DNA from: Nanobdellota archaeon
Lineage (GTDB): Archaea; Nanobdellota; Nanobdellia; Pacearchaeales; GW2011-AR1
Assembly (NCBI GenBank): GCA_027858295.1
Contig: JAQICZ010000034.1
Location: 1 to 44,378 of the forward strand
DNA: 44,378 bases
Reading direction: 5' to 3'
The position numbers were made by a program, and so were the translations under genes. Each line of letters starts with the position of its first letter. Position 1 is the first letter of the stretch. Below, in pieces: positions 10,218 through 44,378 of this stretch. Below the pieces are notes generated by a model. The model made no database searches. It was not told where the DNA came from and saw only the letters and a list, made by a program, of their open reading frames with translations.

Positions 10218-10373
10218 CCATCCATAGCTCAACGGTAGAGCGTTTGGTTGTAGATTAACTAAGGTGGAGTGTCCAGACGGACATACGATGAAGCCCCAAA
10301 AACTAAGAAAACGTAAGTTTTCTTGGGTTCAGCAGAACCCGAAAGGTTCCCGGTTCGATCCCGGGTGGATGGA
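10218..10373 (+). tRNA. tRNA-Tyr(GTA) with an approximately 84-nt intron after position 37 (about 10254-10337)
   Basis: Acceptor CCATCCA/TGGATGG with C1:G72 and A73; D arm GCTC AACGGTA GAGC; anticodon stem TTTGG/CCGAA, loop TTGTAG^C; variable AGGTT; T arm CCCGG TTCGATC CCGGG. Confidence 0.85.
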
Positions 10374-28494: not shown

Positions 28495-29598
28495 ATGAAA
28501 CAAACACAAAAGAAAAAAGTTTTCGGAGTATTGGCTGTGGCTGTATTGATTGCATTGATTTTGATTATTTCTTTTTCTATGACTGGTAATGTTACTGAAA
28601 AAGATAAAGAAGTCATTAAGATTGGTGTTAGCTTGCCTTTATCTGGAGATGTTGCTTTTTTGGGTGAATCTGCAAAGAATGCAATTCTTTTAGCGCAGAG
28701 TGAACTTGGGGAAACTAAGTTTGAATATGTGCTAATTTTTGAAGACAATATGTTTGATGGTAAGCAAGCTGCAACAAATGCTGAGAAATTAATTTCAGTG
28801 AATAATGTTGATGCTATTATTAGTGCTTTTTCTGGTCCTGCAAATGGGATTACTCCTAAATCGGAGCCTGCGAAGGTTATTCATATGAGTATTGCATCTG
28901 ACACTTCTGTTGCTGATGGTCTTTACACATTTGATCATGTAACAACCCCAGAAGAAGAAGTTAGTTTACTAGTTGCAGAAATGCAAAGAAAAGGCATATC
29001 TAAAGTTGCTTACTTTGGGGCTTTGAATGCTGGGGCGACTCCTATCTTGAATGAATTTAAAAGAAGAGCTATTGAGGCAAATATCGAGATTGTTTTGGAA
29101 GATGAATCTCAAATAGGAAATAATGACTTTAAGACTGCACTTATTAAGGCTGAAAAAAAGAATCCAGATGTATATCTGCTTATTCTTGGTTCACCTGGTC
29201 TTGAAACTTTTGCAAAACAAAGTAAGGAGTTAAATCAAAATATTCCTATGGTTGGAATTGAATCATTTGATTTCACAGCTGAAAAAGATTTATTTGAAGG
29301 TCAATGGTATGTAGGATTTGGTGTTGAGAACGCAGAATTTACTGAGAAGTATATTGCAGTTTACGGAGAAAATCCACAAATGTTTGCTGCTGACAACTAT
29401 GATAATTTCAACATCTTGATTAAAGGATATGAATCTTTTAAAGAGAAACCAACAACTACACAGGTTGCAGAAAAGATTTTGACTTTTACAAATATTAACT
29501 CTGCATTTGGACTTATTAGTTCAGATGAGAATGGAGTCTTTACAACAAAGGCTACATTAAGACAGATTGTTAATGGTGAAGTTAAGATTCTTAATTAA
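28495..29598 (+). CDS. ABC transporter substrate-binding protein, LivK/Peripla_BP_6 type (paralog 1)
   Basis: IKIGVSLPLSGDVAFLGESAKNAILLAQSELG...IFEDNMFDGKQAATNAEKLI. Confidence 0.9.
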   Translation: MKQTQKKKVFGVLAVAVLIALILIISFSMTGNVTEKDKEVIKIGVSLPLSGDVAFLGESAKNAILLAQSELGETKFEYVLIFEDNMFDGKQAATNAEKLISVNNVDAIISAFSGPANGITPKSEPAKVIHMSIASDTSVADGLYTFDHVTTPEEEVSLLVAEMQRKGISKVAYFGALNAGATPILNEFKRRAIEANIEIVLEDESQIGNNDFKTALIKAEKKNPDVYLLILGSPGLETFAKQSKELNQNIPMVGIESFDFTAEKDLFEGQWYVGFGVENAEFTEKYIAVYGENPQMFAADNYDNFNILIKGYESFKEKPTTTQVAEKILTFTNINSAFGLISSDENGVFTTKATLRQIVNGEVKILN

Positions 29599-29657
29599 AA
29601 AGAGAAAATAATTTATTTTTATTTTTTGTTTCTCTTTTTTTATTTTTTATTTTTTAT

Positions 29658-30620
29658 TTAGAACGGATAATAATTATACTTAAACGTTTGTGTTATTCTC
29701 ATTATATCAAAATCTCTAATTATGTTTGAAAACTCTTTTCTTAATTTATTTAATTCCTTGTATAGTCCATCTTCATCTTCAACTTCATATTCTAATTCTA
29801 TGTCCCATGATCCAACTAGTTTTAACAAATGGGTAATTTTATTATTCCCCTTTACATAATCTTTAAGAATCTTCTCTTGTTTTTCGTCAAAACTTTTTGT
29901 TCTCAATGTAACTTTGTATAATTTTATTCCTATATTTTCCAAATTTGGAAACATCCTATATTGAATTATTATTTTTTCCTTTGCAAGTTTTTTAACCCTA
30001 TAATTTATAATGTCTCTTGTAAGTTTGATCTTTTCTGACAATTCAACTATTGAAATTCTTGCATTAACAGAAAGTTCTTTAATTATTTTCTCATCTGTCT
30101 CATCTAATGAATAATTTTCCTCAGGAAATCCATAAACAAATTCAGAATCTTTTTTCTCTGTAAAATATTCCCTTGAATACATTGGAGAATATTCTGTAAG
30201 CAAAACATCTTTTTTTAAAATAAATTTAGAAAACTTATTCATAAATCCAAGCATTGTTTTGCCAAATTCAAAATTATTTTTAGCAAGAATAGAAACGGCC
30301 AAATCCCAATTTCCTCTAACCTCTCCAACCCAAATAGAACTTTTATCTTTAATCCAATAATTTCTAATTAAGTTTTCATCTTCTGGAGAGGCATTCTCAA
30401 ATTTAAAATAAATCTTATATTGAGAATATCCCAATCGAGTAAAATTAATTACAGTATAATAATTAAAGATAATATCATTACTTCTAAATCTATTTAATCT
30501 ATATTCCACTGCAGGCTTAGAAAGTTCAACCTTACTTGCAATCTGTGAGTTTGTGAGTCTAGCATTCTCATCTAGCAATGAAAGAATTTTTTTATCCTTT
30601 AAATCTAATTTTAACACCAT
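29658..30620 (-). CDS. Lrp/AsnC-like regulator with two HTH repeats
   Basis: LDLKDKKILSLLDENARLTNSQIASKVELSKPAVEYRLNRF and LDETDEKIIKELSVNARISIVELSEKIKLTRDIINYRVKKL. Confidence 0.9.
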   Translation of the reverse strand: MVLKLDLKDKKILSLLDENARLTNSQIASKVELSKPAVEYRLNRFRSNDIIFNYYTVINFTRLGYSQYKIYFKFENASPEDENLIRNYWIKDKSSIWVGEVRGNWDLAVSILAKNNFEFGKTMLGFMNKFSKFILKKDVLLTEYSPMYSREYFTEKKDSEFVYGFPEENYSLDETDEKIIKELSVNARISIVELSEKIKLTRDIINYRVKKLAKEKIIIQYRMFPNLENIGIKLYKVTLRTKSFDEKQEKILKDYVKGNNKITHLLKLVGSWDIELEYEVEDEDGLYKELNKLRKEFSNIIRDFDIMRITQTFKYNYYPF

Positions 30621-30757
30621 ATAATTAATAATATGTACTAAGTTTATATATTTTACTTATATGTAAGACTTTTTATAGATAGAATTGATATATGCAAATA
30701 TGTTAGTACTTCTAAGTTACAGGTTAACTTGTATAGAGATACAAAGGAGACAAAAAA

Positions 30758-31861
30758 ATGAAAAATAAAAATACAAAAATAATTGTAATCGCTTCAGTTC
30801 TAGTGGCGATAATAATTTTAGCAATTACATTAACTTCAAGTAATAATGTAGTTGAAGCTAAAACAGTAAAGATTGGAGTAATCGGTCATTTTAGTGGAAA
30901 CTATGCAGATTATGGGCTTCCAATGAAAAATGCTGTTTCATTATATGTTGACGAATTCAACAAAAATAATGAAATGCAAATTCAACTAATATTTGAAGAT
31001 GACTTAACAGATGCAAACAAAGCAGCCTCTGCTATGAATAAGCTTGTGAATATTGATAATGTAGATTATGTTCTTTCTGCTCAAGGTAGTGGTGCAGCAT
31101 CAGTTATTGCACCAATTGCAGAAGACACTGGGACTATTCTAATGGTGACTTTAGGCTCAGCACCTGGAATTCCACAAGGCAAGGATTATGTCTTTAGATC
31201 AGTTGTGTCAGATGTCTATCAAGGTTCAGCAATCCTCAATGTTATTGAAAATAAATTTAATTCAAAAAAGGTTTCAGTATTATATGTAAATGATGCTTAT
31301 GGTGTTGGTATTAAGGATTATATGTTAAATGGGAATTTTGAAAAAGGAATTTATGAGACATTTGAGTCTCAATCTAGTGATTTTAAAACACAACTGTTGA
31401 AAATTAAAGAATCTAATTCCGACACCTTAGCTCTTATTGCTAGGGACAAAGAAATTCCGACAATTTTAAGGCAAATTGATGATTTAGGCATAGATTTTAA
31501 GTATATTATCATTTCCGAAATAATGACACCTGAAGAAGTTTTATCAAATACTGGTTTAAATTCAGAGGGGATTTATACAATTTCTGCAAAGAGCCCTATT
31601 GACTATGTGAATTTCAACGAACAATACAAGGAAGTTTATGGTGAAGACTTAGGGTATGCAATGTATGCTTATGATGGAGCCGTTGCTTTAATCAAGGCTA
31701 TCAAATCTTCTAATGCCAATGCAGAAGTTGTTAAAACTAAGCTTCATTCTGTGAGTTTTAATGGTGCTAGTGGAGAAGTTGGATTTGACTTAGAAGGCGA
31801 TAGAACTGGAGTAAGTTATGAAGTCTACCAGGTTGTGAACGGAAAGCTTGTGGTTGTATAA
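30758..31861 (+). CDS. LivK-type substrate-binding protein (paralog 2)
   Basis: VKIGVIGHFSGNYADYGLPMKNAVSLYVDEFN...FEDDLTDANKAASAMNKLV. Confidence 0.9.
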   Translation: MKNKNTKIIVIASVLVAIIILAITLTSSNNVVEAKTVKIGVIGHFSGNYADYGLPMKNAVSLYVDEFNKNNEMQIQLIFEDDLTDANKAASAMNKLVNIDNVDYVLSAQGSGAASVIAPIAEDTGTILMVTLGSAPGIPQGKDYVFRSVVSDVYQGSAILNVIENKFNSKKVSVLYVNDAYGVGIKDYMLNGNFEKGIYETFESQSSDFKTQLLKIKESNSDTLALIARDKEIPTILRQIDDLGIDFKYIIISEIMTPEEVLSNTGLNSEGIYTISAKSPIDYVNFNEQYKEVYGEDLGYAMYAYDGAVALIKAIKSSNANAEVVKTKLHSVSFNGASGEVGFDLEGDRTGVSYEVYQVVNGKLVVV

Positions 31862-31973
31862 AGAGAAAATAATTTATTTTTATTTTTTTATTCTCTTTTT
31901 TTGTCTACGGTAATGGATGGTATTTATGTATTAAAAAAATAAAAAGAGAAAAAATGAAAAAATAAATTTCTCT

Positions 31974-33086
31974 TTAAATTAATACAACTTTTTCTCCGTT
32001 AAGAATTTGTTTAACAATTGCTTTACTATCAACTATTCCACCTGGTAAAACATTTAATATTCCCATGGCACCAACGAAGCCTTTTGTACTTTGCAAAATA
32101 TCTTTTGCTTCTGACGCTTTTCCATTCTCAGTTTTTTCGAATGATTTTATGATTAGTTTTAGACAATCATATCCATTTCCAGAATATGGTAAAGGTTCTG
32201 AGTTGTATTTGTTCTTAAAATCAGTTACATAAGATTCTGTCGGATTTGCTGAATAAACATACCATGCACCTTCGAATAATTCATATTCTTCAGTGTTTTC
32301 AAATGATTCTATTGCTGATAAAGGTATATCAATATTTAATTCATTAATTTGTTTTCCGATTATCTCGATCTCTGGAGAAATACCTATAATCAATAAAACT
32401 TCTGCACCTGATTCTTTTGATTTCATCAAACTTGTCCTAAAATCGGTTGCCCCTTTATTATAAACCTCATTCAAAGTTATTTCAACTTCCTTCTTTGATA
32501 TTTGTTCTTCTAAAGCGACCGTAATAGATGAAGCCCAGTTGCTATTCTCTCTAACTATTCCAACTTTTTCAATTCCTCTCGATTCCAACTCATCTAAAAA
32601 CATTCTAACTTCTTCCTCAGGGGTGGTCCAATGTATGAAATTATACATTCCTTCTGAAACTTTTTTATCAGTCGCAATACTTATATGTAAAATATTATTT
32701 TCTTCTGTTATTGGTGATATTATACTTCCTTGTCCAGATCCTATTGAAATGACTGAATCTATTTTATCTACATAAACCAACTTATTTATTGCCGATAAAG
32801 TCTTTGTTGTGTCAAACGAGTTATCTTCAAATATTATTTCATATTCATATTTAGTATTTCCGAGTTGTTCCTTTGCTAAAACCATTGCGTCACGAATACC
32901 TTCTCCTAAAAATCCAACATCTCCAGTTAATGGGATTATTACTCCAATCTTTATTATTTCTTTATTTGCCGGCATCTCGCCCGTTGAAAAAGATAATAAT
33001 AATATAATTGCTAATATAACTGCTAATGATGCGAATAATATTGTCTTCTTGTTTTTCATTTGTTTTGGCCTCCCTTCTAGCTGCAT
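31974..33086 (-). CDS. LivK-type substrate-binding protein (paralog 3)
   Basis: IKIGVIIPLTGDVGFLGEGIRDAMVLAKEQLG...FEDNSFDTTKTLSAINKLV. Confidence 0.9.
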   Translation of the reverse strand: MQLEGRPKQMKNKKTILFASLAVILAIILLLSFSTGEMPANKEIIKIGVIIPLTGDVGFLGEGIRDAMVLAKEQLGNTKYEYEIIFEDNSFDTTKTLSAINKLVYVDKIDSVISIGSGQGSIISPITEENNILHISIATDKKVSEGMYNFIHWTTPEEEVRMFLDELESRGIEKVGIVRENSNWASSITVALEEQISKKEVEITLNEVYNKGATDFRTSLMKSKESGAEVLLIIGISPEIEIIGKQINELNIDIPLSAIESFENTEEYELFEGAWYVYSANPTESYVTDFKNKYNSEPLPYSGNGYDCLKLIIKSFEKTENGKASEAKDILQSTKGFVGAMGILNVLPGGIVDSKAIVKQILNGEKVVLI

Positions 33087-33136
33087 AATGGGTTAGTAAT
33101 GAATTAAAACGTATAATAAATATTTATCCCTTTTTT

Positions 33137-33177
33137 CATACATAATGGTAATATTTATATATAATAATACCAGTATG
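33137..33177. promoter_or_regulatory. Extended dyad enclosing a TATA box in the livK3/lrp2 intergenic region
   Basis: CATAC ataa TGGTAATATT tatatat AATAATACCA GTATG. Confidence 0.6.
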
Positions 33178-33184
33178 TAGATAT

Positions 33185-34132
33185 ATGAAAATTGATATTA
33201 AGGATAGAAAAATATTATATGAATTAGAAAAGAACTCTAGACTAACTAATTCTCAAATTGGGAAGAGCGTTGGCCTTGGTCGTGATTCCGTTGGATACAG
33301 AATAAAACAATTAGAAGGAAAAGGCATTATTCGTGGATACAAGGCGGTTATTAATACAAGTAAGCTAGACTATGATTTTTTTAGAGTTTACTTCAAATTA
33401 ATGGATTTAAAAAAAGGAGATTTGGAAAAGATTATTGGGTTCTTAAAAAAAGATAAACGTGCCTGGTGGATTGCAAAACTTGAAGGCTCCTGGGACCTGG
33501 TCTTTGCCTTCTTTGCTAAAACAAATAAGGAATTTTATGATTTTCAATTTCAATTGCTAGAAAATTTTAGATCAAATATCAAGGAAAGTCTAATATCACC
33601 GATTATTTATTATCGCGAGATGCCCAGAAGATATCTAACAAATTCTAGAGAGAATTTTAAGATTGATGTTTCTGACCCTATTATTAAAATGGATGACAAA
33701 GATTTTAAAATACTTCGGATTTTGTCAAAAAATGGACGAATAATGATGATTGATTTGGCCAAGGCATTAAAACTTGATATTAAAACTATTAAATCTAGAA
33801 TTAAGAAACTTGAATCTGAAAAAATAATACTTGGTTACAATACAGATGTTGATGTCTCTAAATTAGGCAGGGACTTTTATACAGTTCAGATTAGTTTAAA
33901 CAATTATTCACGATTTGATTCTGTTAGAAATTATGTCCAATCACTCGTAGAATCTACATCTTGGGTTATTTCCATTGGTGGTGCTGATTTAGAATTTGAT
34001 TTGGAAATTGAAAACAGCAATAGATATTATGAGATTATTGATAAACTGCGTTCTAAATTTCCAGAAATTCGAGAGATTAGATATTTTAGAATTCGTGAGA
34101 ATTATAAAATAAATTATATGCCTGAAGAATAA
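33185..34132 (+). CDS. Lrp/AsnC-like regulator with two HTH repeats
   Basis: IDIKDRKILYELEKNSRLTNSQIGKSVGLGRDSVGYRIKQLEGKGIIRGY and MDDKDFKILRILSKNGRIMMIDLAKALKLDIKTIKSRIKKL. Confidence 0.9.
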   Translation: MKIDIKDRKILYELEKNSRLTNSQIGKSVGLGRDSVGYRIKQLEGKGIIRGYKAVINTSKLDYDFFRVYFKLMDLKKGDLEKIIGFLKKDKRAWWIAKLEGSWDLVFAFFAKTNKEFYDFQFQLLENFRSNIKESLISPIIYYREMPRRYLTNSRENFKIDVSDPIIKMDDKDFKILRILSKNGRIMMIDLAKALKLDIKTIKSRIKKLESEKIILGYNTDVDVSKLGRDFYTVQISLNNYSRFDSVRNYVQSLVESTSWVISIGGADLEFDLEIENSNRYYEIIDKLRSKFPEIREIRYFRIRENYKINYMPEE

Positions 34133-34205
34133 AAAAGGAATTCAAATTTATTTATTTTTAACTTTTAGTTACCTTTAAATTACCCATTCCCCTTGAAAGA
34201 AAAAG

Positions 34206-35081
34206 ATGGTATTTACACAACTACTAATGAACTCCCTAATAATAGGAAGTATCTACGCCTTAGTTGCCGCAGGCTTCTCCCTTATTTACAAGGCAAATAA
34301 ATTCTTTCATTTTGCTCATGGGTCGGTTGTTACATTTTCTGGATATATGTTCTACTTGGCATTCTCCTCACTGAATTTAGGATTAGTATTTTCTTCGATA
34401 TTTGCCTTAGTTCTTGCTGGAGCCTTGGGCTGGGGATTTTATGAAGGAGTCTATTTGCCAATACAGAAACGTGGAGCATCCAAGGCAATTCTGTTGATAG
34501 TATCTGTTGGGTTAATGATTTTAATTGAAAATTTAATATTGCTATTCTTTGGTGCTAATGTTAAAGTTCTTAAAATTGGAAGTTATGAAAGTTTGAATAT
34601 TCTTGGTGCCATTGTTACACCACTTCAACTTGTTATTATTGGTGTGTCTGTTATTCTATTTTTAATCTTATACTATATCATTAATAAAACTAAAATTGGT
34701 CGTGATCTGCGGGCTGTTAGCGATTCTAAAGAACTCTCAAGTATAGTGGGAATTAATTCCAGAAGAGTTTTAAACTTCTCTTTTATTATTGGCTCTTTTA
34801 TTGCGGGGATTGGCGGAATACTTATTGGGATGGAGCAAAACTTGACTCCAACCATGGGTATGATTCTAGGGATTAAAGGATTTACTGGGGCTGTAATTGG
34901 AGGGATGGCTTCTGTTCCTGCGGCGGTTCTTGGAAGTTATATTCTGGGAATTGTTGAGAATTTTGGTATTTGGTATTTGCCTAGTGGATATAAAGACGCT
35001 ATTGCATTTATTCTATTGTTTTTATTCTTGCTGTTGAAGCCTGAAGGATTATTTGGTAAAAAAATGGAGAGAAAAGGATGA
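34206..35081 (+). CDS. livH: Branched-chain amino acid ABC transporter permease LivH
   Basis: LLMNSLIIGSIYALVAAGFSLIYKANKFFHFAHGSVVTFSGY; GIKGFTGAVIGGMASVPAAVLGSYILGIVEN. Confidence 0.95.
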   Translation: MVFTQLLMNSLIIGSIYALVAAGFSLIYKANKFFHFAHGSVVTFSGYMFYLAFSSLNLGLVFSSIFALVLAGALGWGFYEGVYLPIQKRGASKAILLIVSVGLMILIENLILLFFGANVKVLKIGSYESLNILGAIVTPLQLVIIGVSVILFLILYYIINKTKIGRDLRAVSDSKELSSIVGINSRRVLNFSFIIGSFIAGIGGILIGMEQNLTPTMGMILGIKGFTGAVIGGMASVPAAVLGSYILGIVENFGIWYLPSGYKDAIAFILLFLFLLLKPEGLFGKKMERKG

Positions 35082-35279
35082 TGCGCGAAGCGCATGTATA
35101 TGGTATTAAGTATGAGGTAAGGTGTAGAGGAACGAGTAAGAATGCAGGACTTTGTCCTGAATTGATAAGTTTAATTATTCGTTCGCGCTGCGTGCATGGA
35201 TGGTTGGAGATTAACAGAGGAGTTAAAAGATGAAAGGAAAAATAAAAAGAAGAAAGAAAATTAATAGGAGAATGAAGCA

Positions 35280-36149
35280 ATGATAGCTAATTATTTTATT
35301 CATATATTGATTCTTGTAGGGATTTATTCTATACTTTCTGTTAGTTTGAACTTAGCTCTTGGATATACGGGACTACTTAACTTAGGGCACGTTGCTTTCT
35401 TTGGTGTTGGCGCGTATGTCTCTGCATTGCTTAATATGGTTGGAGTTCCGTTCATAATTTCTTTCTTAGCTGCAGGTGTGGTTGCTGGAGCATTTGGCTT
35501 ATTTTTGATTTATGTTAGTAAAAAACTAAAAGGGGATTATTTGGCTCTTGCAACTTTAGGGTTTGCATTCATTGTTTATTCTCTGTTATTGAATTTAAAG
35601 TTCACTCGTGGACCTCTTGGTATTCCTGGAATTCCTAAGCCTGAAATTTTTGGAATTGTTATTTCTTCTAATCTATCTTATTTGATTTTAGTTTTAGTCA
35701 TTGGGGTATTGACTTTTTTATTCTTTAACAAAGTTGTAAAGTCTTCTTTTGGTAAGATGCTTGGTGCTTTGCGTGATGATGAATTAAATCTTCGCGTACT
35801 TGGTAAAAATACTACTAAACTGAAATATTATTCTATGGGAATTAGCGCTTTCTTTGCAGGGATTGCTGGTTCTTTATTTGCTCACTATATTACATATATT
35901 GACCCGTCTTCGTTTTATATGAGTGAATTAATTTTGATTGTAACTATAGTTATTATTGGCGGGTTGGCATCAATTGAAGGTTCTTTAATTGGGGCTTTTA
36001 TTGTTATTCTAATTCCTGAAGTTTTGAGATTTTTTGCTTTGCCTAGCTCGATTTTAGGACCGATGAGACAAATATTTTATGCTCTTGTATTAATTGGGGT
36101 TCTTTGGTGGAGGCCTAAGGGGATTCTGGGGAAGGTGGATTTACAATGA
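35280..36149 (+). CDS. livM: Branched-chain amino acid ABC transporter permease LivM
   Basis: LSVSLNLALGYTGLLNLGHVAFFGVGAYVSALL; GALRDDELNLRVLGKNTTKLKYYSMGISAFFAGIAGSLFAHY. Confidence 0.95.
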   Translation: MIANYFIHILILVGIYSILSVSLNLALGYTGLLNLGHVAFFGVGAYVSALLNMVGVPFIISFLAAGVVAGAFGLFLIYVSKKLKGDYLALATLGFAFIVYSLLLNLKFTRGPLGIPGIPKPEIFGIVISSNLSYLILVLVIGVLTFLFFNKVVKSSFGKMLGALRDDELNLRVLGKNTTKLKYYSMGISAFFAGIAGSLFAHYITYIDPSSFYMSELILIVTIVIIGGLASIEGSLIGAFIVILIPEVLRFFALPSSILGPMRQIFYALVLIGVLWWRPKGILGKVDLQ

Positions 36150-36206
36150 AATACATGAATAACAAATTTTATAAATTGAAATATACTAACTATATTGATA
36201 TGAACC

Positions 36207-36246
36207 CCGGTAATCTAGAGATGGGTTGCCGGATGAGTCTTTTTTA
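36207..36246 (+). other. Stem-loop plus T-run: possible attenuator or small RNA
   Basis: CCGGTAA(36207-36213)/TTGCCGG(36226-36232) with one G-T pair, then CTTTTTTATTTT; TATA-like TTTTATAAATT about 30-40 nt upstream. Confidence 0.4.
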
Positions 36247-36261
36247 TTTTGAGGTGATATT

Positions 36262-36828
36262 ATGAGTGATACATTAGTTTTTATTGATGATGGATTTTTG
36301 TCTAAATTAAGTAAGTTTTTTGGAGAAGGAAAATATATAAAATTACATAGAAAAAAAATTTCAGAATTAATAGCAAGAAAGGAAAGTACAAATTTACTAA
36401 AAACATATCTATATACTGCCCCTCCATTCCAGAGAAATGTTCCAACTCTATTAGAAGAGAAAAGAAGGAGGGGGTATGACCGATTTGTAAAATCTTTAAT
36501 AGATGAAGGAATTGAAGTGAGAGAAGGAAGGTGTCAGAGATTAAAAATTAATGGTGAATTTGTATATTCTCAAAAAGGTGTTGATACATTATTGACTATG
36601 GACTTAGTAAAAGCACCATTTAAATTTCCAACAGTAAAAAAGATTATAATAATAGCTTCAGATTCAGATTTTGTTCCAGTAATTAAAGATATTCAAAGTG
36701 AAGGAGTAAAAGTTGTTCTATATACTTATTTTGAGAAAGGTCGTAAGGCTATATTTTCAACTTCAAATGAATTAATAAAAACTGTTTACAAATATGTTAA
36801 GTTAACAAAAGAGGACTTTTTAAAATGA
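36262..36828 (+). CDS. NYN (LabA/DUF88, PIN-like) domain protein
   Basis: TLVFIDDGFL...QKGVDTLLTMDLVK...IIIIASDSDFVPVIKDIQSEGVKVVLY. Confidence 0.88.
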   Translation: MSDTLVFIDDGFLSKLSKFFGEGKYIKLHRKKISELIARKESTNLLKTYLYTAPPFQRNVPTLLEEKRRRGYDRFVKSLIDEGIEVREGRCQRLKINGEFVYSQKGVDTLLTMDLVKAPFKFPTVKKIIIIASDSDFVPVIKDIQSEGVKVVLYTYFEKGRKAIFSTSNELIKTVYKYVKLTKEDFLK

Positions 36829-37550
36829 TAAAAATAAAGAATATAAATAAATCTTTTGGAGGGCTAAAAGCCGTTGATGGTATTAATTTAGAAATTGGCA
36901 AAGGCCAAATTACTGCTATTATTGGTCCGAATGGAAGCGGAAAGACAACATTATTTAATTTGATTTCTGGAATAGTTGAGAAGGATTCTGGTTCTATTTC
37001 TTTAAATGGAAAGAATATTTCTAGACAAGAAGATTTTCAGAGAAGTGAGTCTGGAATATCTAGAACTTTTCAACATGTTAGATTGTTTAAAAATTTAACA
37101 ATAAGAGAACATTTTGAAGTTGCTTTGGATGATGATAAAAATCTGCTGAAAAAGATTTTTTCTAAGAATAAAGATAGTGGTGATGAAATTGAACGGGTTA
37201 TGAGACTCATTGGGCTTGAAAAAAACATTGAAACGAAAGCAAATGATCTAAGTTATGGACAAAGAAAACTTCTTGATATTGGAATTGGAATTGTAAAGAA
37301 ACATGATGTTTTGATGCTTGATGAGCCTGTAGCTGGAATTAATCCTCTGCTTCGACGCAAGATTAAGGAATTGATTAAAGTATTAAGAGAACAAGGTGAA
37401 ACGATTGTGATTATCGAGCACAATATGGAGTTTGTTATGGATTTGGCTGACAGAGTTGTTTGTTTGGAGCAAGGGAATGTTATTTTCGAGGGGACGGCGA
37501 AAGAAGCGCAGAGTAGCAAGGAGGTGCTTGAAGCTTACTTAGGTAAGTGA
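36825..37550 (+). CDS. livG: Branched-chain amino acid ABC transporter ATPase LivG
   Basis: IIGPNGSGKTTLFN, LSYGQRKLLDIGIGI, VLMLDEPVAGINP. Confidence 0.95.
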   Translation: MIKIKNINKSFGGLKAVDGINLEIGKGQITAIIGPNGSGKTTLFNLISGIVEKDSGSISLNGKNISRQEDFQRSESGISRTFQHVRLFKNLTIREHFEVALDDDKNLLKKIFSKNKDSGDEIERVMRLIGLEKNIETKANDLSYGQRKLLDIGIGIVKKHDVLMLDEPVAGINPLLRRKIKELIKVLREQGETIVIIEHNMEFVMDLADRVVCLEQGNVIFEGTAKEAQSSKEVLEAYLGK

Positions 37551-37599
37551 TAATATATTGAACAATAGTTTTATATATTGAACGATAGTTCTAATTAAA

Positions 37600-38145
37600 A
37601 TGATGAAGAAATTTGAGAACTATGCTGGGATTAAGGTTTTGAATTATTTTTTAAAGAATCCTTCTACCAAGATTTATATTAAAGGACTTAGTCGTGAGCT
37701 AATTATTAGTTCTGCTACTTCAAAGACATTCTGCGATCAGTTTGAAGCCGAGAAGTTTTTAACTTCTGAAAGAATCGGAAATGTTAAATTATTTTATTTG
37801 AATAATGATTCTACTTATGTTCGTGAAATGAAGAGGGTATTTGCTTTAATGTTTTTTAGAGATTCGGGAATAGATAAAATTTTTACTAACTATGTTAGTT
37901 TTGCAATTTATGGAAGTTATGCAAATGGGGAGTATGATGAATCGAGTGATTTAGACCTTCTTCTTCTTGTTAGAAAGAAAGGTATAAGCAGAGACAAGTT
38001 ATTAAAATTTGAAAAAAAGATTGGAGTTGAAATCCAATTAACAGAATTACCTTATTATACATGGGAAAAAGAAAAGAAAGAAGGAAAGAACTTTTGCCGT
38101 GAAGTTTTGGAAAAACATATCTTAATTGGGGGCGAGAAATTATGA
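37600..38145 (+). CDS. MNT nucleotidyltransferase with N-terminal wHTH
   Basis: FAIYGSYANGEYDESSDLDLLLLV. Confidence 0.88.
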   Translation: MMKKFENYAGIKVLNYFLKNPSTKIYIKGLSRELIISSATSKTFCDQFEAEKFLTSERIGNVKLFYLNNDSTYVREMKRVFALMFFRDSGIDKIFTNYVSFAIYGSYANGEYDESSDLDLLLLVRKKGISRDKLLKFEKKIGVEIQLTELPYYTWEKEKKEGKNFCREVLEKHILIGGEKL

Positions 38146-38564
38146 GTAGATTTGATTATTGTTTGAAGTCTGGAATGATTAGGAAAGACTCAAAAGCAAC
38201 AGAGAGAGTATCGGAGTCCATTGAAACGTCGAAAAGATTCTTAATATCATCCGAAAAAACTTATGATATAAAAGAGTATGAAATGTCAGTATTAGCATCA
38301 TACAACTCAATGTTTCATTCTTGCAGAGTATTATTATTTAGTAAGGGATATATAGAAAAAAGCCATGCTTGTTTACTTGAAGCAATAAAAGAATTATTTT
38401 CAGGAGGCAAGATATCATTGCTTGTAAATATGCTAAATAAAATAAAAAAGTCCAGACATGAGATACAATATAGAGGTTTCCAGTCAGACTTAGAAGAGGC
38501 AGAGTTTGCGATTGATTTAGCTAGAGATTTTATTAACGAAGTTGGGAGAATCTTGGGACAATAA
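38142..38564 (+). CDS. HEPN domain protein
   Basis: LASYNSMFHSCRVLLFSKGYIEKSHACLLEAIKELF; overlaps MNT by 4 nt. Confidence 0.82.
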   Translation: MSRFDYCLKSGMIRKDSKATERVSESIETSKRFLISSEKTYDIKEYEMSVLASYNSMFHSCRVLLFSKGYIEKSHACLLEAIKELFSGGKISLLVNMLNKIKKSRHEIQYRGFQSDLEEAEFAIDLARDFINEVGRILGQ

Positions 38565-38668
38565 AATGCAGGATTACGTCATGAATTGATAAGTTGAATT
38601 GTCCGCTCCGCTGGGAACATTGTTGGCTGGAGGATGACTGCTAGTTAAAGACATAATAAAAAGAAAAA

Positions 38669-39364
38669 ATGACAGAAGAAAAAATGAAAAAAGAAGACAA
38701 CATGATTGAGTTGAAGAACATTAAAGCTGGGTATGGTAAGTTTGAAGTTTTGCATGGGATGAATATGGAAATTCCTAGAGGCAAGATTACTGCTATTATT
38801 GGGCCTAATGGAAGTGGAAAAAGTACGGTTATAAAATCAATATATAATATTGCGGATGTTTATTCTGGAAAGGTCTTGCTGAATGATGAAGACATTACTA
38901 ACCTTCAAGCTCACGAATTGATTCGCCATGGTGTTGCGTATATCCCTCAAGGCAAAAGGATTTTTGAAGAGTTAACTGTGCTCGAGAATTTGGAACTTGG
39001 TGCTGAATTTATTAATGACAAAGAATTATGTGAAACTCGAATCAAGGAAGTGTTTAGGAAATATCCAGTTCTCGAAAAGAGGCAGAAAAAGTTAGCTTAT
39101 GGATTAAGCGGTGGGGAGAGGCAGCAGCTTGCGCTTGGTCGTGCTTTGATTCAAAAGCCCGAAGTTATTATTATGGATGAACCGTCTATTGGCCTATCAC
39201 CAATTTTACAGAAGGATTTATTTTTGATGATTCAGGAGCTCCGAGATGAAGGGTTAACTATTTTGATTGTTGAGCAGAATGCTAAGAAGGCAATTGAGAT
39301 TGCTGACAAGACTTATATTTTGGAGAACAAGAAGATACGGGAAGTTTATTTGGGTGGGTATTGA
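38669..39364 (+). CDS. livF: Branched-chain amino acid ABC transporter ATPase LivF, with shortened C-terminus
   Basis: IIGPNGSGKSTVIKS, LSGGERQQLALGRALIQKPEVIIMDEPSIGLSP; ends ADKTYILENKKIREVYLGGY without the usual GEVVFSGGAEIL segment. Confidence 0.93.
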   Translation: MTEEKMKKEDNMIELKNIKAGYGKFEVLHGMNMEIPRGKITAIIGPNGSGKSTVIKSIYNIADVYSGKVLLNDEDITNLQAHELIRHGVAYIPQGKRIFEELTVLENLELGAEFINDKELCETRIKEVFRKYPVLEKRQKKLAYGLSGGERQQLALGRALIQKPEVIIMDEPSIGLSPILQKDLFLMIQELRDEGLTILIVEQNAKKAIEIADKTYILENKKIREVYLGGY

Positions 39365-40937: not shown

Positions 40938-42119
40938 ATGCACTACCACATAATCCTAACAGAAAGATGCAACCTAAAATGCACCTACTGCTACGAAAAA
41001 TCAATGAAAGAATTCGAGAACGGACTCGAAGAGAAATGGGACTATGATATGGAAACACCAGTAGATTCAGGAGTTTCAATCGAAAGAATAAAAAAACTAA
41101 TCAAACCAACAGACACACTAATCTTCTATGGTGGGGAGCCGCTTGTTATGATGGATAAGATGAAAGAGATTATGGACCATGTGAATTGTAAGTTTCAGAT
41201 GCAGTCTAATGGGGTTTTGCTTGATCAGTTACCTACTGAATATTTGCTTCGGTTGGATAAGATGTTGATTTCTATTGATGGGACTTCTGAGAGGACTAAT
41301 ACTAATAAAGGCAAGGCGAAGTATGAGATTATTACTAATAATTTGCGTGATGCTCGGGACCGTGGATATAAGGGCGAAGTTGTTGCGCGTATGGTTATTA
41401 CTGAACCTGATTTATATGAACAGGTTATGCATTTGATTGGTTTGATTAAAGTTGGTCTTTACGATTCGATTCATTGGCAGATTGATGCGGAGTTTTATAA
41501 GTTTGATTATGATAAGGAGAAGTTCACTGAATTTGTGAAGGGATATAATGCATCTCTGAAGAGGTTGCTTAAATGGTGGTTAGCAGAGATGCAGCGGTCA
41601 ACTGTTCACGGTCTACAGTCTACGGTTGACGGTCCACGGTCCACGGTCCCAAAGATTTATCCTTTTCTTGGAGTTTTAGGCAGAGTAATGGGCTGGGACA
41701 AAGAAACTCGGTTACCCTGCGGTGCAGGCTATGCTAATTTTACTATTAATACCAATGGGAATTTGTCTGCTTGTCCTATTATGAATTCGGTTAAGAACAT
41801 GTATTGTGGTTCTGTTGAGGAAGGTGTGACGAAGGAAATGAAATGTGGCGGATGGTGTGTTGGTTGTTCGTATATAGATATTTGTGGTGGTCGTTGTCTT
41901 TATTCAAATGATGCCCAACTCTGGCCAAAAGAAGGACATGATTTAGTTTGTGAAACAATTAAATGTTTAATTGATGGAATTCGAGGGCTTGTTGACGGTA
42001 GACGATTGACGGTAGACGGTAAGGAATTAAAGAATATTCGTGAGTTGATTGAAGAGGGTGTTGTTGGGAAAGAAGATTTTGATTTTGAGCGCTACTTCGG
42101 CCCGGAGATTATACCTTAG
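40938..42119 (+). CDS. Radical SAM/SPASM-type protein (archaeal putative peptide-modifying, possibly AF1577-like)
   Basis: HIILTERCNLKCTYCYEKS (CxxxCxxC), LIFYGGEPLV, SPASM-like CGAGYANFTINTNGNLSACPIM...CGGWCVGCSYIDICGGRCLYS. Confidence 0.88.
   Translation: MHYHIILTERCNLKCTYCYEKSMKEFENGLEEKWDYDMETPVDSGVSIERIKKLIKPTDTLIFYGGEPLVMMDKMKEIMDHVNCKFQMQSNGVLLDQLPTEYLLRLDKMLISIDGTSERTNTNKGKAKYEIITNNLRDARDRGYKGEVVARMVITEPDLYEQVMHLIGLIKVGLYDSIHWQIDAEFYKFDYDKEKFTEFVKGYNASLKRLLKWWLAEMQRSTVHGLQSTVDGPRSTVPKIYPFLGVLGRVMGWDKETRLPCGAGYANFTINTNGNLSACPIMNSVKNMYCGSVEEGVTKEMKCGGWCVGCSYIDICGGRCLYSNDAQLWPKEGHDLVCETIKCLIDGIRGLVDGRRLTVDGKELKNIRELIEEGVVGKEDFDFERYFGPEIIP
41596..41650. repeat. Heptamer array inside the radical SAM gene, array 1
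   Basis: GGTCAAC TGTTCAC GGTCTAC AGTCTAC GGTTGAC GGTCCAC GGTCCAC GGTCCC. Confidence 0.92.
41989..42023. repeat. Heptamer array inside the radical SAM gene, array 2
   Basis: TTGTTGAC GGTAGAC GATTGAC GGTAGAC GGTAA. Confidence 0.85.
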
Positions 42120-42278: not shown

Positions 42279-42989
42279 TTATTGTTTTATTCCAACTAAT
42301 AATCCCCGTCCTATTAATCCGTGTTTCATATACTTTACTTTGAATCCTGATTCGCACATCAACTTTGCAATTCTCTTGTGTGATGTTATTTTTAATTCAT
42401 GTGTATCGTTCATTTTTTTAATTCCATTGTTTTTTATTGCAATGGTGTAATGATTTTCTAGTATTGTAAAGTCTTTTTTTCTTTTGAGGCTTGTTATTCT
42501 TGATATTTTCATATTCTCTCCGTTGTATGTTCTCATATGAAACATATCTTCTGGATGATTTGACTCTGAAAACCAAGGTTCTATTATTGCTACTCCACCT
42601 GTATTTAGATGATAGTAGAAGTTTTGGAATGTTTGTTTCAATTCTTCATCTGTTTTAAGATATCCTATGCCGCTGAAGAGCGAAGTCATTATATCAAACT
42701 TTTTACACAGGTTAAAGTTTGTCATATTTCCGAGATTAAAATTATTTTGTGGAAATTTTATTTTTGCTACCGAGAGTAATTCTTGGCTTAAATCTAAACC
42801 TTCACAGTTGAATCTCTTTTTTAGAAAGTTTATGTGATTTCCAGTTCCGCAGGCGACATCTAGCAGTCTTTTACCTTTTGACTTTTTGTATTTTTTGATT
42901 ACTTGGTTTATTATTTTTGATTCTTTTTTGTAATTTTTGTTTAGATATAGGCAATCATAATATTTTACAAATTCTTTGTATTCTAACAT
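42279..42989 (-). CDS. Class I SAM-dependent methyltransferase
   Basis: RLLDVACGTGNHINFLKKRF...EGLDLSQELLSVAKIKFP...FDIMTSLFSGIGYLKT; start 1 nt downstream of the preceding gene. Confidence 0.9.
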   Translation of the reverse strand: MLEYKEFVKYYDCLYLNKNYKKESKIINQVIKKYKKSKGKRLLDVACGTGNHINFLKKRFNCEGLDLSQELLSVAKIKFPQNNFNLGNMTNFNLCKKFDIMTSLFSGIGYLKTDEELKQTFQNFYYHLNTGGVAIIEPWFSESNHPEDMFHMRTYNGENMKISRITSLKRKKDFTILENHYTIAIKNNGIKKMNDTHELKITSHKRIAKLMCESGFKVKYMKHGLIGRGLLVGIKQ

Positions 42990-42990
42990 T

Positions 42991-43692
42991 TTAATTTATA
43001 ATTGCCCATGCGTTTTTTCTATCGGGTAGTTTTTTATTTAACCTCTCAAAAGTTTTGCCTAATACAATATCACAGATAAAATAGAATACAGAATCTGTTC
43101 GGGGATATGGAGAGAGGTTATAATAAACCCCTTTGTAGTTTATACCTGAATATGCTAACGAAAATTCATCAAGGACATAATCGCAAAGCTTCCAATACTC
43201 ATATTCTTTAAACTTTCTATCTAGCAAGGATTCTTTTACTGCTTTCAAAATAGGAGTTCTAAAGTCTTTATTATTTTTGAATTCTCTGTAAACGGATTGA
43301 GTCGTTTTTGGCCAAAATATATCTTCTTTCTCATATTCATCCCAATTGATAACATTGACTCTTTCTTTTATTTCTAAAGGAAATGTTGAAATGAATTCTT
43401 CAATATTTTGTTTTATTATATTACCATCCTTTAAAACTCGTCTTAAACTAGCAGCTTCCGAATATGTTTTATTTCTAATAAAAAAATTTGTGTCCTGTAT
43501 TTTATCTACTACTAATAATAATACTTTTTCTTTTGTGTATTCTAATGCCCAATTTAAATATTCTTTTATATTGTTATTAAGTACTCCTTTATGCGAAAAG
43601 AATTTGTTTCCTAGACATATTGGAATGAATATGTTGTGTTCTCTGGATTCTATTTTCCCTTCAGTTGTATTGAAGAGTTGTTTAATCTTCAT
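42991..43692 (-). CDS. Cyclodipeptide synthase-like protein (copy 1)
   Basis: HNIFIPICLGNKFFSHKG aligns with AlbC HALIGISAGNSYFSQKN; WALEYTKEKVLLLVVDKIQDTNFF...SLRRVLKDG; DYVLDEFSLAYSG...YYNLSPYPRTDSVFYF aligns with NYVLAEAPLF...SSVLCYH. Confidence 0.72.
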   Translation of the reverse strand: MKIKQLFNTTEGKIESREHNIFIPICLGNKFFSHKGVLNNNIKEYLNWALEYTKEKVLLLVVDKIQDTNFFIRNKTYSEAASLRRVLKDGNIIKQNIEEFISTFPLEIKERVNVINWDEYEKEDIFWPKTTQSVYREFKNNKDFRTPILKAVKESLLDRKFKEYEYWKLCDYVLDEFSLAYSGINYKGVYYNLSPYPRTDSVFYFICDIVLGKTFERLNKKLPDRKNAWAIIN

Positions 43693-43693
43693 T

Positions 43694-44378
43694 TTAATTA
43701 ATAATCACCATTGCAACTTTTTCTTTTGGTAGTCTTTTTTCTAACTTTTTAAATATTTTATTTTGTTTTATATCTTCTAAAAAATAAACTGTGGAATCTG
43801 AGAATGGATAAATGAACATCCTATAATAGTCATCCTGATATATCACTCCATGATAGCATATTGAGAATTCATCTAAGATATAATCTGAAAGTTTCCAGTA
43901 TTGCGCTTCACTAAATTTTCTATCTGTCAATGTTGTCTTAATGGTTTTTAATATTGCACTTCTAAACTCTTTATTATTTTTGAATTCATTATAAACTAAT
44001 CTTGTTGTTAACCCGCAAATAGAATCTTCTTTTTCGTATTCTTCCCAATTAACAATTTTAATTTTGTTTTGTGCCTGTTTCGGGAGATTGCTTATCATTT
44101 CTTCTACGCCTTTTCTTATTTCTAGACCACACCTTAAGACTCTTCTTAAATTTTGGTGTTCTGTATTGTTAGAAATTCTAACCATATAATTTGTTAATTG
44201 TATTTTATCTGGAATTACAATTAATACTTTTTCTTTTGTGTTTTCTAATGCCCATTTTAAATATTCTTTAAATTTTTCACTTATTAGGCCTTTATTTGAA
44301 AAAAATTTATTCCCTAAACATATTGGAATGAATATGTTGTGTTTCTTTGATTCTATTTTTTATTCACTTGTATTAAAT
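43694..44378 (-). pseudogene. Second CDPS-like gene (copy 2), in-frame TAA near its 5' end; continues past the window edge
   Basis: Reading upstream of the annotated Met gives NTSE*KIESKKHNIFIPICLGNKFFSNKGLISEKFKEYLKWALENTKEKVLIVIPDKIQLTNYMVRISNN..., closely matching copy 1; TAA at 44360-44362 in frame. Confidence 0.65.

Follow-up and report, generated by a model that had tools for sequence, protein, structure and literature searches.

Canonical cyclodipeptide synthases (CDPSs) act through a serine nucleophile, on which an oxoester is formed. AlbC, YvmC and Rv2275 represent the NYH subfamily; the archaeal enzymes described here share their fold and the equivalents of the catalytic residues Tyr178, Glu182 and Tyr202, but have cysteine and proline in place of Ser37 and His203. 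Ser37 of AlbC has been called strictly conserved in active CDPSs. The nearest solved relative by sequence and by fold is ParcuCDPS from Parcubacteria bacterium RAAC4_OD1_1 (PDB 7QB8), a cyclo(His-Glu)/cyclo(His-Pro) synthase of the XYP subfamily. An archaeal member of the same subfamily, AQS34941, is known (Gondry et al. 2018, PMC5816076); the text consulted credits it with all XYP CDPS characteristics and reports no cysteine, tandem arrangement or methyltransferase, and by that description it differs from the locus presented here. Tailoring methyltransferases adjoin the CDPS in actinobacterial CDPS-N-methyltransferase clusters (Ndas_1145, Amir_4628; PMC5767969).

The window analysed here is an entire contig (C36) of 44,378 bases from a draft genome of 1.35 Mb that is 88% complete. 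The host is an uncultured, nano-sized DPANN (Nanobdellota-type) archaeon, and the contig itself is marked as archaeal by a thermosome subunit and tandem-domain Lrp/AsnC regulators. At the right end of the window, the minus strand encodes CDPS copy 2 (43694–44378), CDPS copy 1 (42991–43692, 233 aa) and a SAM-dependent methyltransferase (42279–42989, 236 aa), in this order and with a gap of 1 nt at both junctions. The two paralogous frames and the methyltransferase had already been identified in a sequence-only reading of this DNA, and the 1-nt spacing that it gave between copy 1 and the methyltransferase is correct. In ParcuCDPS, by comparison, no such tandem pair with a methyltransferase has its counterpart.

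Two CDPS copies at a contig end

Copies 1 and 2 are almost certainly CDPSs. A phmmer search aligned residues 2–224 of copy 1 with ParcuCDPS (7QAT; E 5e-14), and a nine-member profile matched 20 distinct PDB sequences, all of them CDPSs, with E-values from 7e-46 to 0.009. The sequence-only reading had proposed an HMM search against the Pfam family, with a mixed outcome: PF16715 does not recognise copy 1, whereas NCBIfam TIGR04539 matches it at 42.1 bits (E 7e-11), 3 bits short of the cut-off of 45, which the orthologue of copy 1 from another species of the same clade (L003) passes with 50 bits. The AlphaFold (AF2) model of copy 1, built with only nine sequences, has a pLDDT of 92.8 and a pTM of 0.89. 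Its best Foldseek match is ParcuCDPS (7QAX; E 3e-13, TM 0.78), all 50 of the listed PDB matches are CDPSs, and the model shares with them the Rossmann, class-Ic aaRS-like fold. The earlier assignment, which had been staked on a family match and on this fold, is thus upheld by the solved CDPSs, by TIGR04539 and by the model. By sequence and by fold the copies clearly belong to the family, although one of its defining features, the serine, is absent.

The copies have the same length as ParcuCDPS and keep the equivalents of its Asp58, Tyr167, Glu171 and Tyr191-Pro192. Tyr178, Glu182 and Tyr202 of AlbC correspond to Tyr172, Glu176 and Tyr196, which are retained in both copies and in the two further cysteine-type enzymes introduced below. 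The sequence-only reading had placed the first two correctly but assigned Tyr202 to the tyrosine of an SVFY/STVY motif; we rejected that residue because the YP motif (Tyr196-Pro197) is the one that aligns with Tyr191-Pro192 of ParcuCDPS. Its presence in all four cysteine-type enzymes places them in the XYP subfamily.

Copy 2 is interrupted in the window by an in-frame TAA at 44360–44362 (minus strand), and its start lies outside. Past the TAA, the first ATG, GTG or TTG is the Met of MVRIS, by which point the nucleophile and the conserved Asp have already been passed. When the genome was searched at the DNA level, the end of another contig (C59) proved to overlap the final 24 bases of C36, all but one of which agree. 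The differing base is the first of the stop codon: C59 has GAA where C36 has TAA. The same contig supplies an ATG and the missing N-terminal peptide with the first codons (MEIKKI). The joined copy 2 (MEIKKIFNTSEEKIESKKHNIFIPICLGN...) has 233 aa, equal in length to copy 1 (MKIKQLFNTTEGKIESREHNIFIPICLGN...). Because the overlapping contig reads GAA and provides the start and N-terminus, the copy 2 gene is most likely whole, the joined form depending on these 24 overlapping bases with their single difference, and we rejected its reading as a pseudogene. The TAA is most simply explained as a probable error at the very end of the contig or as variation between strains. Over 221 aligned residues the two copies share 54% identity, far beyond chance, and their dN/dS of about 0.32 (dN 0.36), which is approximate since dS is 1.10, fits purifying selection.

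Cysteine at the position of the catalytic serine

The acyl-accepting serine (Ser37 of AlbC, Ser26 of ParcuCDPS) is replaced by Cys26 in both copies, encoded by TGT at 43615–43617 in copy 1 and at 44318–44320 in copy 2 (both minus strand). The nucleophile loop reads G-I/V-S-x-G-N in most serine-type relatives and P-I-C-L-G-N in copies 1 and 2. Cysteine is shared by a congeneric archaeon from Crystal Geyser (L003/L023, JAACWA010000037.1; P-I-C-V-G-N) and by G207 (L030; P-L-C-L-G-N), a complete genome of another family, which brings the sequences known to us to four, from three genomes. Among the genomes covered, those of one archaeal phylum and of a single scan of bacteria and archaea, serine occupies this position in at least 23 other related CDPSs from the phylum and from Patescibacteria (one of them, L005, counted by separate alignment), and in every other motif-bearing relative aligned.

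A maximum-likelihood tree built from 22 sequences unites the four cysteine enzymes in one clade (support 99/98; 100% of bootstrap trees), with the serine enzyme of a genus-mate (L002/L024) as the nearest outgroup row. Asp63, Tyr172, Glu176, Tyr196 and Pro197 are invariant within the clade. The equivalent of AlbC Gly35, a small residue in ParcuCDPS, is Pro24 throughout, next to the cysteine of the nucleophile loop, and 5–7 residues are inserted after this loop. Together, the proline next to the cysteine and the insertion indicate that the active site has been remodelled.

Engineered enzymes bear on whether such a cysteine could function. Among the active-site variants of ParcuCDPS, S26C has the highest activity and continues to form product, whereas D58N/A are dead (PMC7613923), and in a crystal of AlbC S37C (4Q24) a Phe-derived substrate analogue is covalently bonded to the sulphur (PMC5935735). 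Cysteine mutants of serine CDPSs are less active than the wild type. Cys26 is probably a working nucleophile. Since the other catalytic residues are kept and the engineered Ser-to-Cys ParcuCDPS retains activity, we infer that catalysis would proceed via aminoacyl- and dipeptidyl-thioester intermediates. Our search of the open-access literature found no report of a natural cysteine CDPS. This cysteine, overlooked in the sequence-only reading, is the main novelty of the locus. A natural cysteine clade with its other catalytic residues intact would show that the CDPS family tolerates, or chose, thioester catalysis, and it offers enzymes whose acyl-enzyme can be trapped and followed.

Methyltransferase, proposed regulation and proposed product

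The methyltransferase carries the SAM-binding motif LLDVACGTGNH and is homologous over its full length to the dTDP-amino-sugar N,N-dimethyltransferases DesVI (3BXO; E 6e-39, residues 8–234) and TylM1 (3PFG; E 1e-33). Its genomic partner differs from theirs: no deoxysugar gene is recognisable next to it, and it stands beside a CDPS. From the methyltransferases of the Ndas_1145 and Amir_4628 clusters, it is set apart by their description; here the enzyme is DesVI/TylM1-like, the host is archaeal, and there is no adjacent oxidase or P450. The proposal that it belongs to the same operon as the CDPS gains support from the Crystal Geyser archaeon (L003/L023), where the junction of CDPS, 1 nt and methyltransferase is conserved although the proteins of the two species have diverged to 39–46% identity. 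Among 11 members of the genus, strong matches to the paired methyltransferase (1e-15 or better) occur only in the two genomes with a cysteine CDPS; the genome of the window has one further, more distant match on contig C17.

There is a slightly better than even chance that the methyltransferase modifies the cyclodipeptide, and N-methylation would be likelier than O- or C-methylation because its DesVI/TylM1-like relatives N-methylate amino sugars; an unrelated amine is also a possible substrate. In a less probable scenario, though one to be taken seriously, the synthases are active and the enzyme is an unrelated amino-sugar N-methyltransferase that merely shares their transcript. The identity of its closest solved relatives speaks for this, as does G207, where a cysteine CDPS is present but no closely related methyltransferase gene was found, adjoining or elsewhere, so that methylation is not a fixed part of cysteine CDPS systems. 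Against it stand a 1-nt junction kept in two species at such protein divergence, the restriction of the methyltransferase, within the genus, to genomes that have the cysteine CDPS, and the lack of any recognisable deoxysugar gene beside it. Methylation of the cyclodipeptide is the preferred reading.

Upstream of copy 2, contig C59 encodes a 165-aa frame followed by a divergent tandem-domain Lrp/AsnC-type regulator. The 165-aa frame belongs to no family and has no relative in 54 other genomes searched, and is therefore not counted as part of the operon. An orthologue of the regulator, 56% identical, lies divergently beside the cysteine CDPS of G207, and the two Lrp paralogues in the window are 34–43% identical to it. 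As the regulator is of the Lrp family, the operon may be under amino-acid-responsive control.

In the proposed reaction, the aminoacyl group would move from a charged tRNA to Cys26, positioned by Asp63, to give a thioester, while Tyr172 and Glu176 would hold the first amino acid. A second aminoacyl-tRNA would then yield the dipeptidyl-enzyme, from which the cyclodipeptide would be released with Tyr196 as proton relay; the product would be N-methylated by the co-operonic DesVI-like enzyme, and the operon would probably be controlled by the divergent Lrp/AsnC-type regulator. A two-synthase cyclodipeptide operon combining a Cys26 thioester, DesVI-like N-methylation and divergent Lrp control is, as a complete explanation, reasonably likely.

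ParcuCDPS binds histidine in the P1 pocket by Tyr55, Glu174 and Tyr189, and its Y55V+E174L double variant makes mostly cyclo(Leu-Pro) (PMC7613923). From alignments, the equivalent residues are Leu60, Leu179 and Ser194 in copy 1, Val, Ile and Phe in copy 2, and Leu, Leu and Tyr in the other two cysteine enzymes. Since this pocket lacks the histidine-binding residues and is hydrophobic, as in engineered Leu/Phe-accepting ParcuCDPS variants, our best guess is that the P1 residue would be leucine-like; the products of copies 1 and 2 may differ. Gene context agrees weakly: in G207, ilvC ends about 0.4 kb short of the cysteine CDPS gene and ilvD is 2.7 kb away from it, and a branched-chain amino-acid importer is encoded about 4–15 kb from the CDPS operon in the window.

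A cyclodipeptide is the likely released product. Thioesters are more reactive towards amines than oxoesters, and this general chemistry favours a different outcome, in which the cysteine enzymes do not cyclise but, as CDPS-derived aminoacyl-transferases, hand the aminoacyl-thioester of Cys26 to a different amine, be it on a small molecule, a lipid or a protein, and the methyltransferase then modifies what results. The remodelled site, with Pro24 beside the cysteine and the 5–7-residue insertion, and the closeness of the methyltransferase to enzymes whose methylation target is the free amine of a sugar are compatible with it as well. Against it, Tyr196, the proton relay for cyclisation, is strictly kept together with Glu176 and Tyr172, and an engineered cysteine variant of a CDPS still cyclises, which makes this outcome improbable. 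We regard a broader idea as similarly speculative: by moving from a serine oxoester to a cysteine thioester, the clade would perform chemistry akin to that of NRPSs with a free-standing domain of aaRS-like type, and the reactive thioester would allow the aminoacyl or dipeptidyl group to be transferred to some acceptor that is not a second aminoacyl-tRNA, so that the resulting class of product would be new for CDPSs. It is more doubtful still that loss of the essential serine and the copy 2 stop on C36 mark a decaying operon of degenerate, inactive CDPSs, given that the stop is absent from C59, that dN/dS is 0.32, and that one ancestral Ser-to-Cys change has been kept across species with the other catalytic residues intact.

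Genome-reduced archaea are thought to be host-dependent, and we know of almost no secondary metabolism in them. The cyclodipeptide operon points to a small-molecule pathway in such organisms and provides concrete genes for testing.

Distribution and other loci

The sequence-only reading had considered a cluster of two synthases and a methyltransferase in this kind of archaeon to be new. Archaeal CDPSs as such are not: one was reported in 2018 (PMC5816076), and the family is present in about 3–7% of the surveyed genomes of the phylum. Within the order, a four-sequence profile found CDPS matches in 13 of 200 genomes; across the phylum, 12 of 371 sampled genomes had one. Near relatives occur in Patescibacteria. 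A viral or plasmid origin was rejected because viral contigs, scanned twice, and plasmids, searched once, yielded no CDPS relative, and a defence system was rejected because the CDPS had no PADLOC match.

A third, distant CDPS of the serine type is encoded elsewhere in the genome of the window (L006:6991-7740, minus strand, contig C33), adjoining a divergent HTH regulator frame and with a close relative in G136; three CDPS genes are unusual for one DPANN draft genome. In another member of the order (L005:1321-3425, minus strand), a CDPS-like gene shares an overlap with the end of a gene of the B12-binding radical SAM-like type, which may be a tailoring partner of another kind.

Xer recombinases flank the CDPS in G004 and G005, but were rejected as a fixed partner because they are of different types and orientations (41% identical) and because their relatives in the genome of the window lie on contigs other than that of the CDPS, two of them frame-broken. 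The serine-type sister CDPS of the genus-mate (L024:5168-7102, plus strand) starts inside the stop of an Xer gene and is followed after 1 nt by a short resolvase-type recombinase fragment, a possible mobile context. The two frame-broken copies in the genome of the window (L049:1543-2211, minus strand, and L054) are 59–70% identical to the Xer that adjoins the Crystal Geyser CDPS.

Within the window, a radical SAM/SPASM gene at 40938–42119 (plus strand; TIGR04084, 224.5 of 225 bits) was rejected as part of the operon, being on the opposite strand, convergent and of a general family. It contains in-frame repeats coding STVHGLQSTVDGPRSTV and GLVDGRRLTVDG (about 41610–41680 and 41970–42040), and contig C17 (L047) has similar repeats within a gene of nuclease-like type. 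They have the look of an intragenic repeat family. A tRNA spanning 156 bases at 10218–10373 (plus strand) was found by Rfam and missed by ARAGORN, and therefore probably contains an intron. The branched-chain amino-acid type ABC importer (28495–39364, both strands) comprises binding proteins, two permeases and two ATPases, and its region includes the two tandem-domain Lrp regulators, a set unexpected for a reduced archaeal genome.
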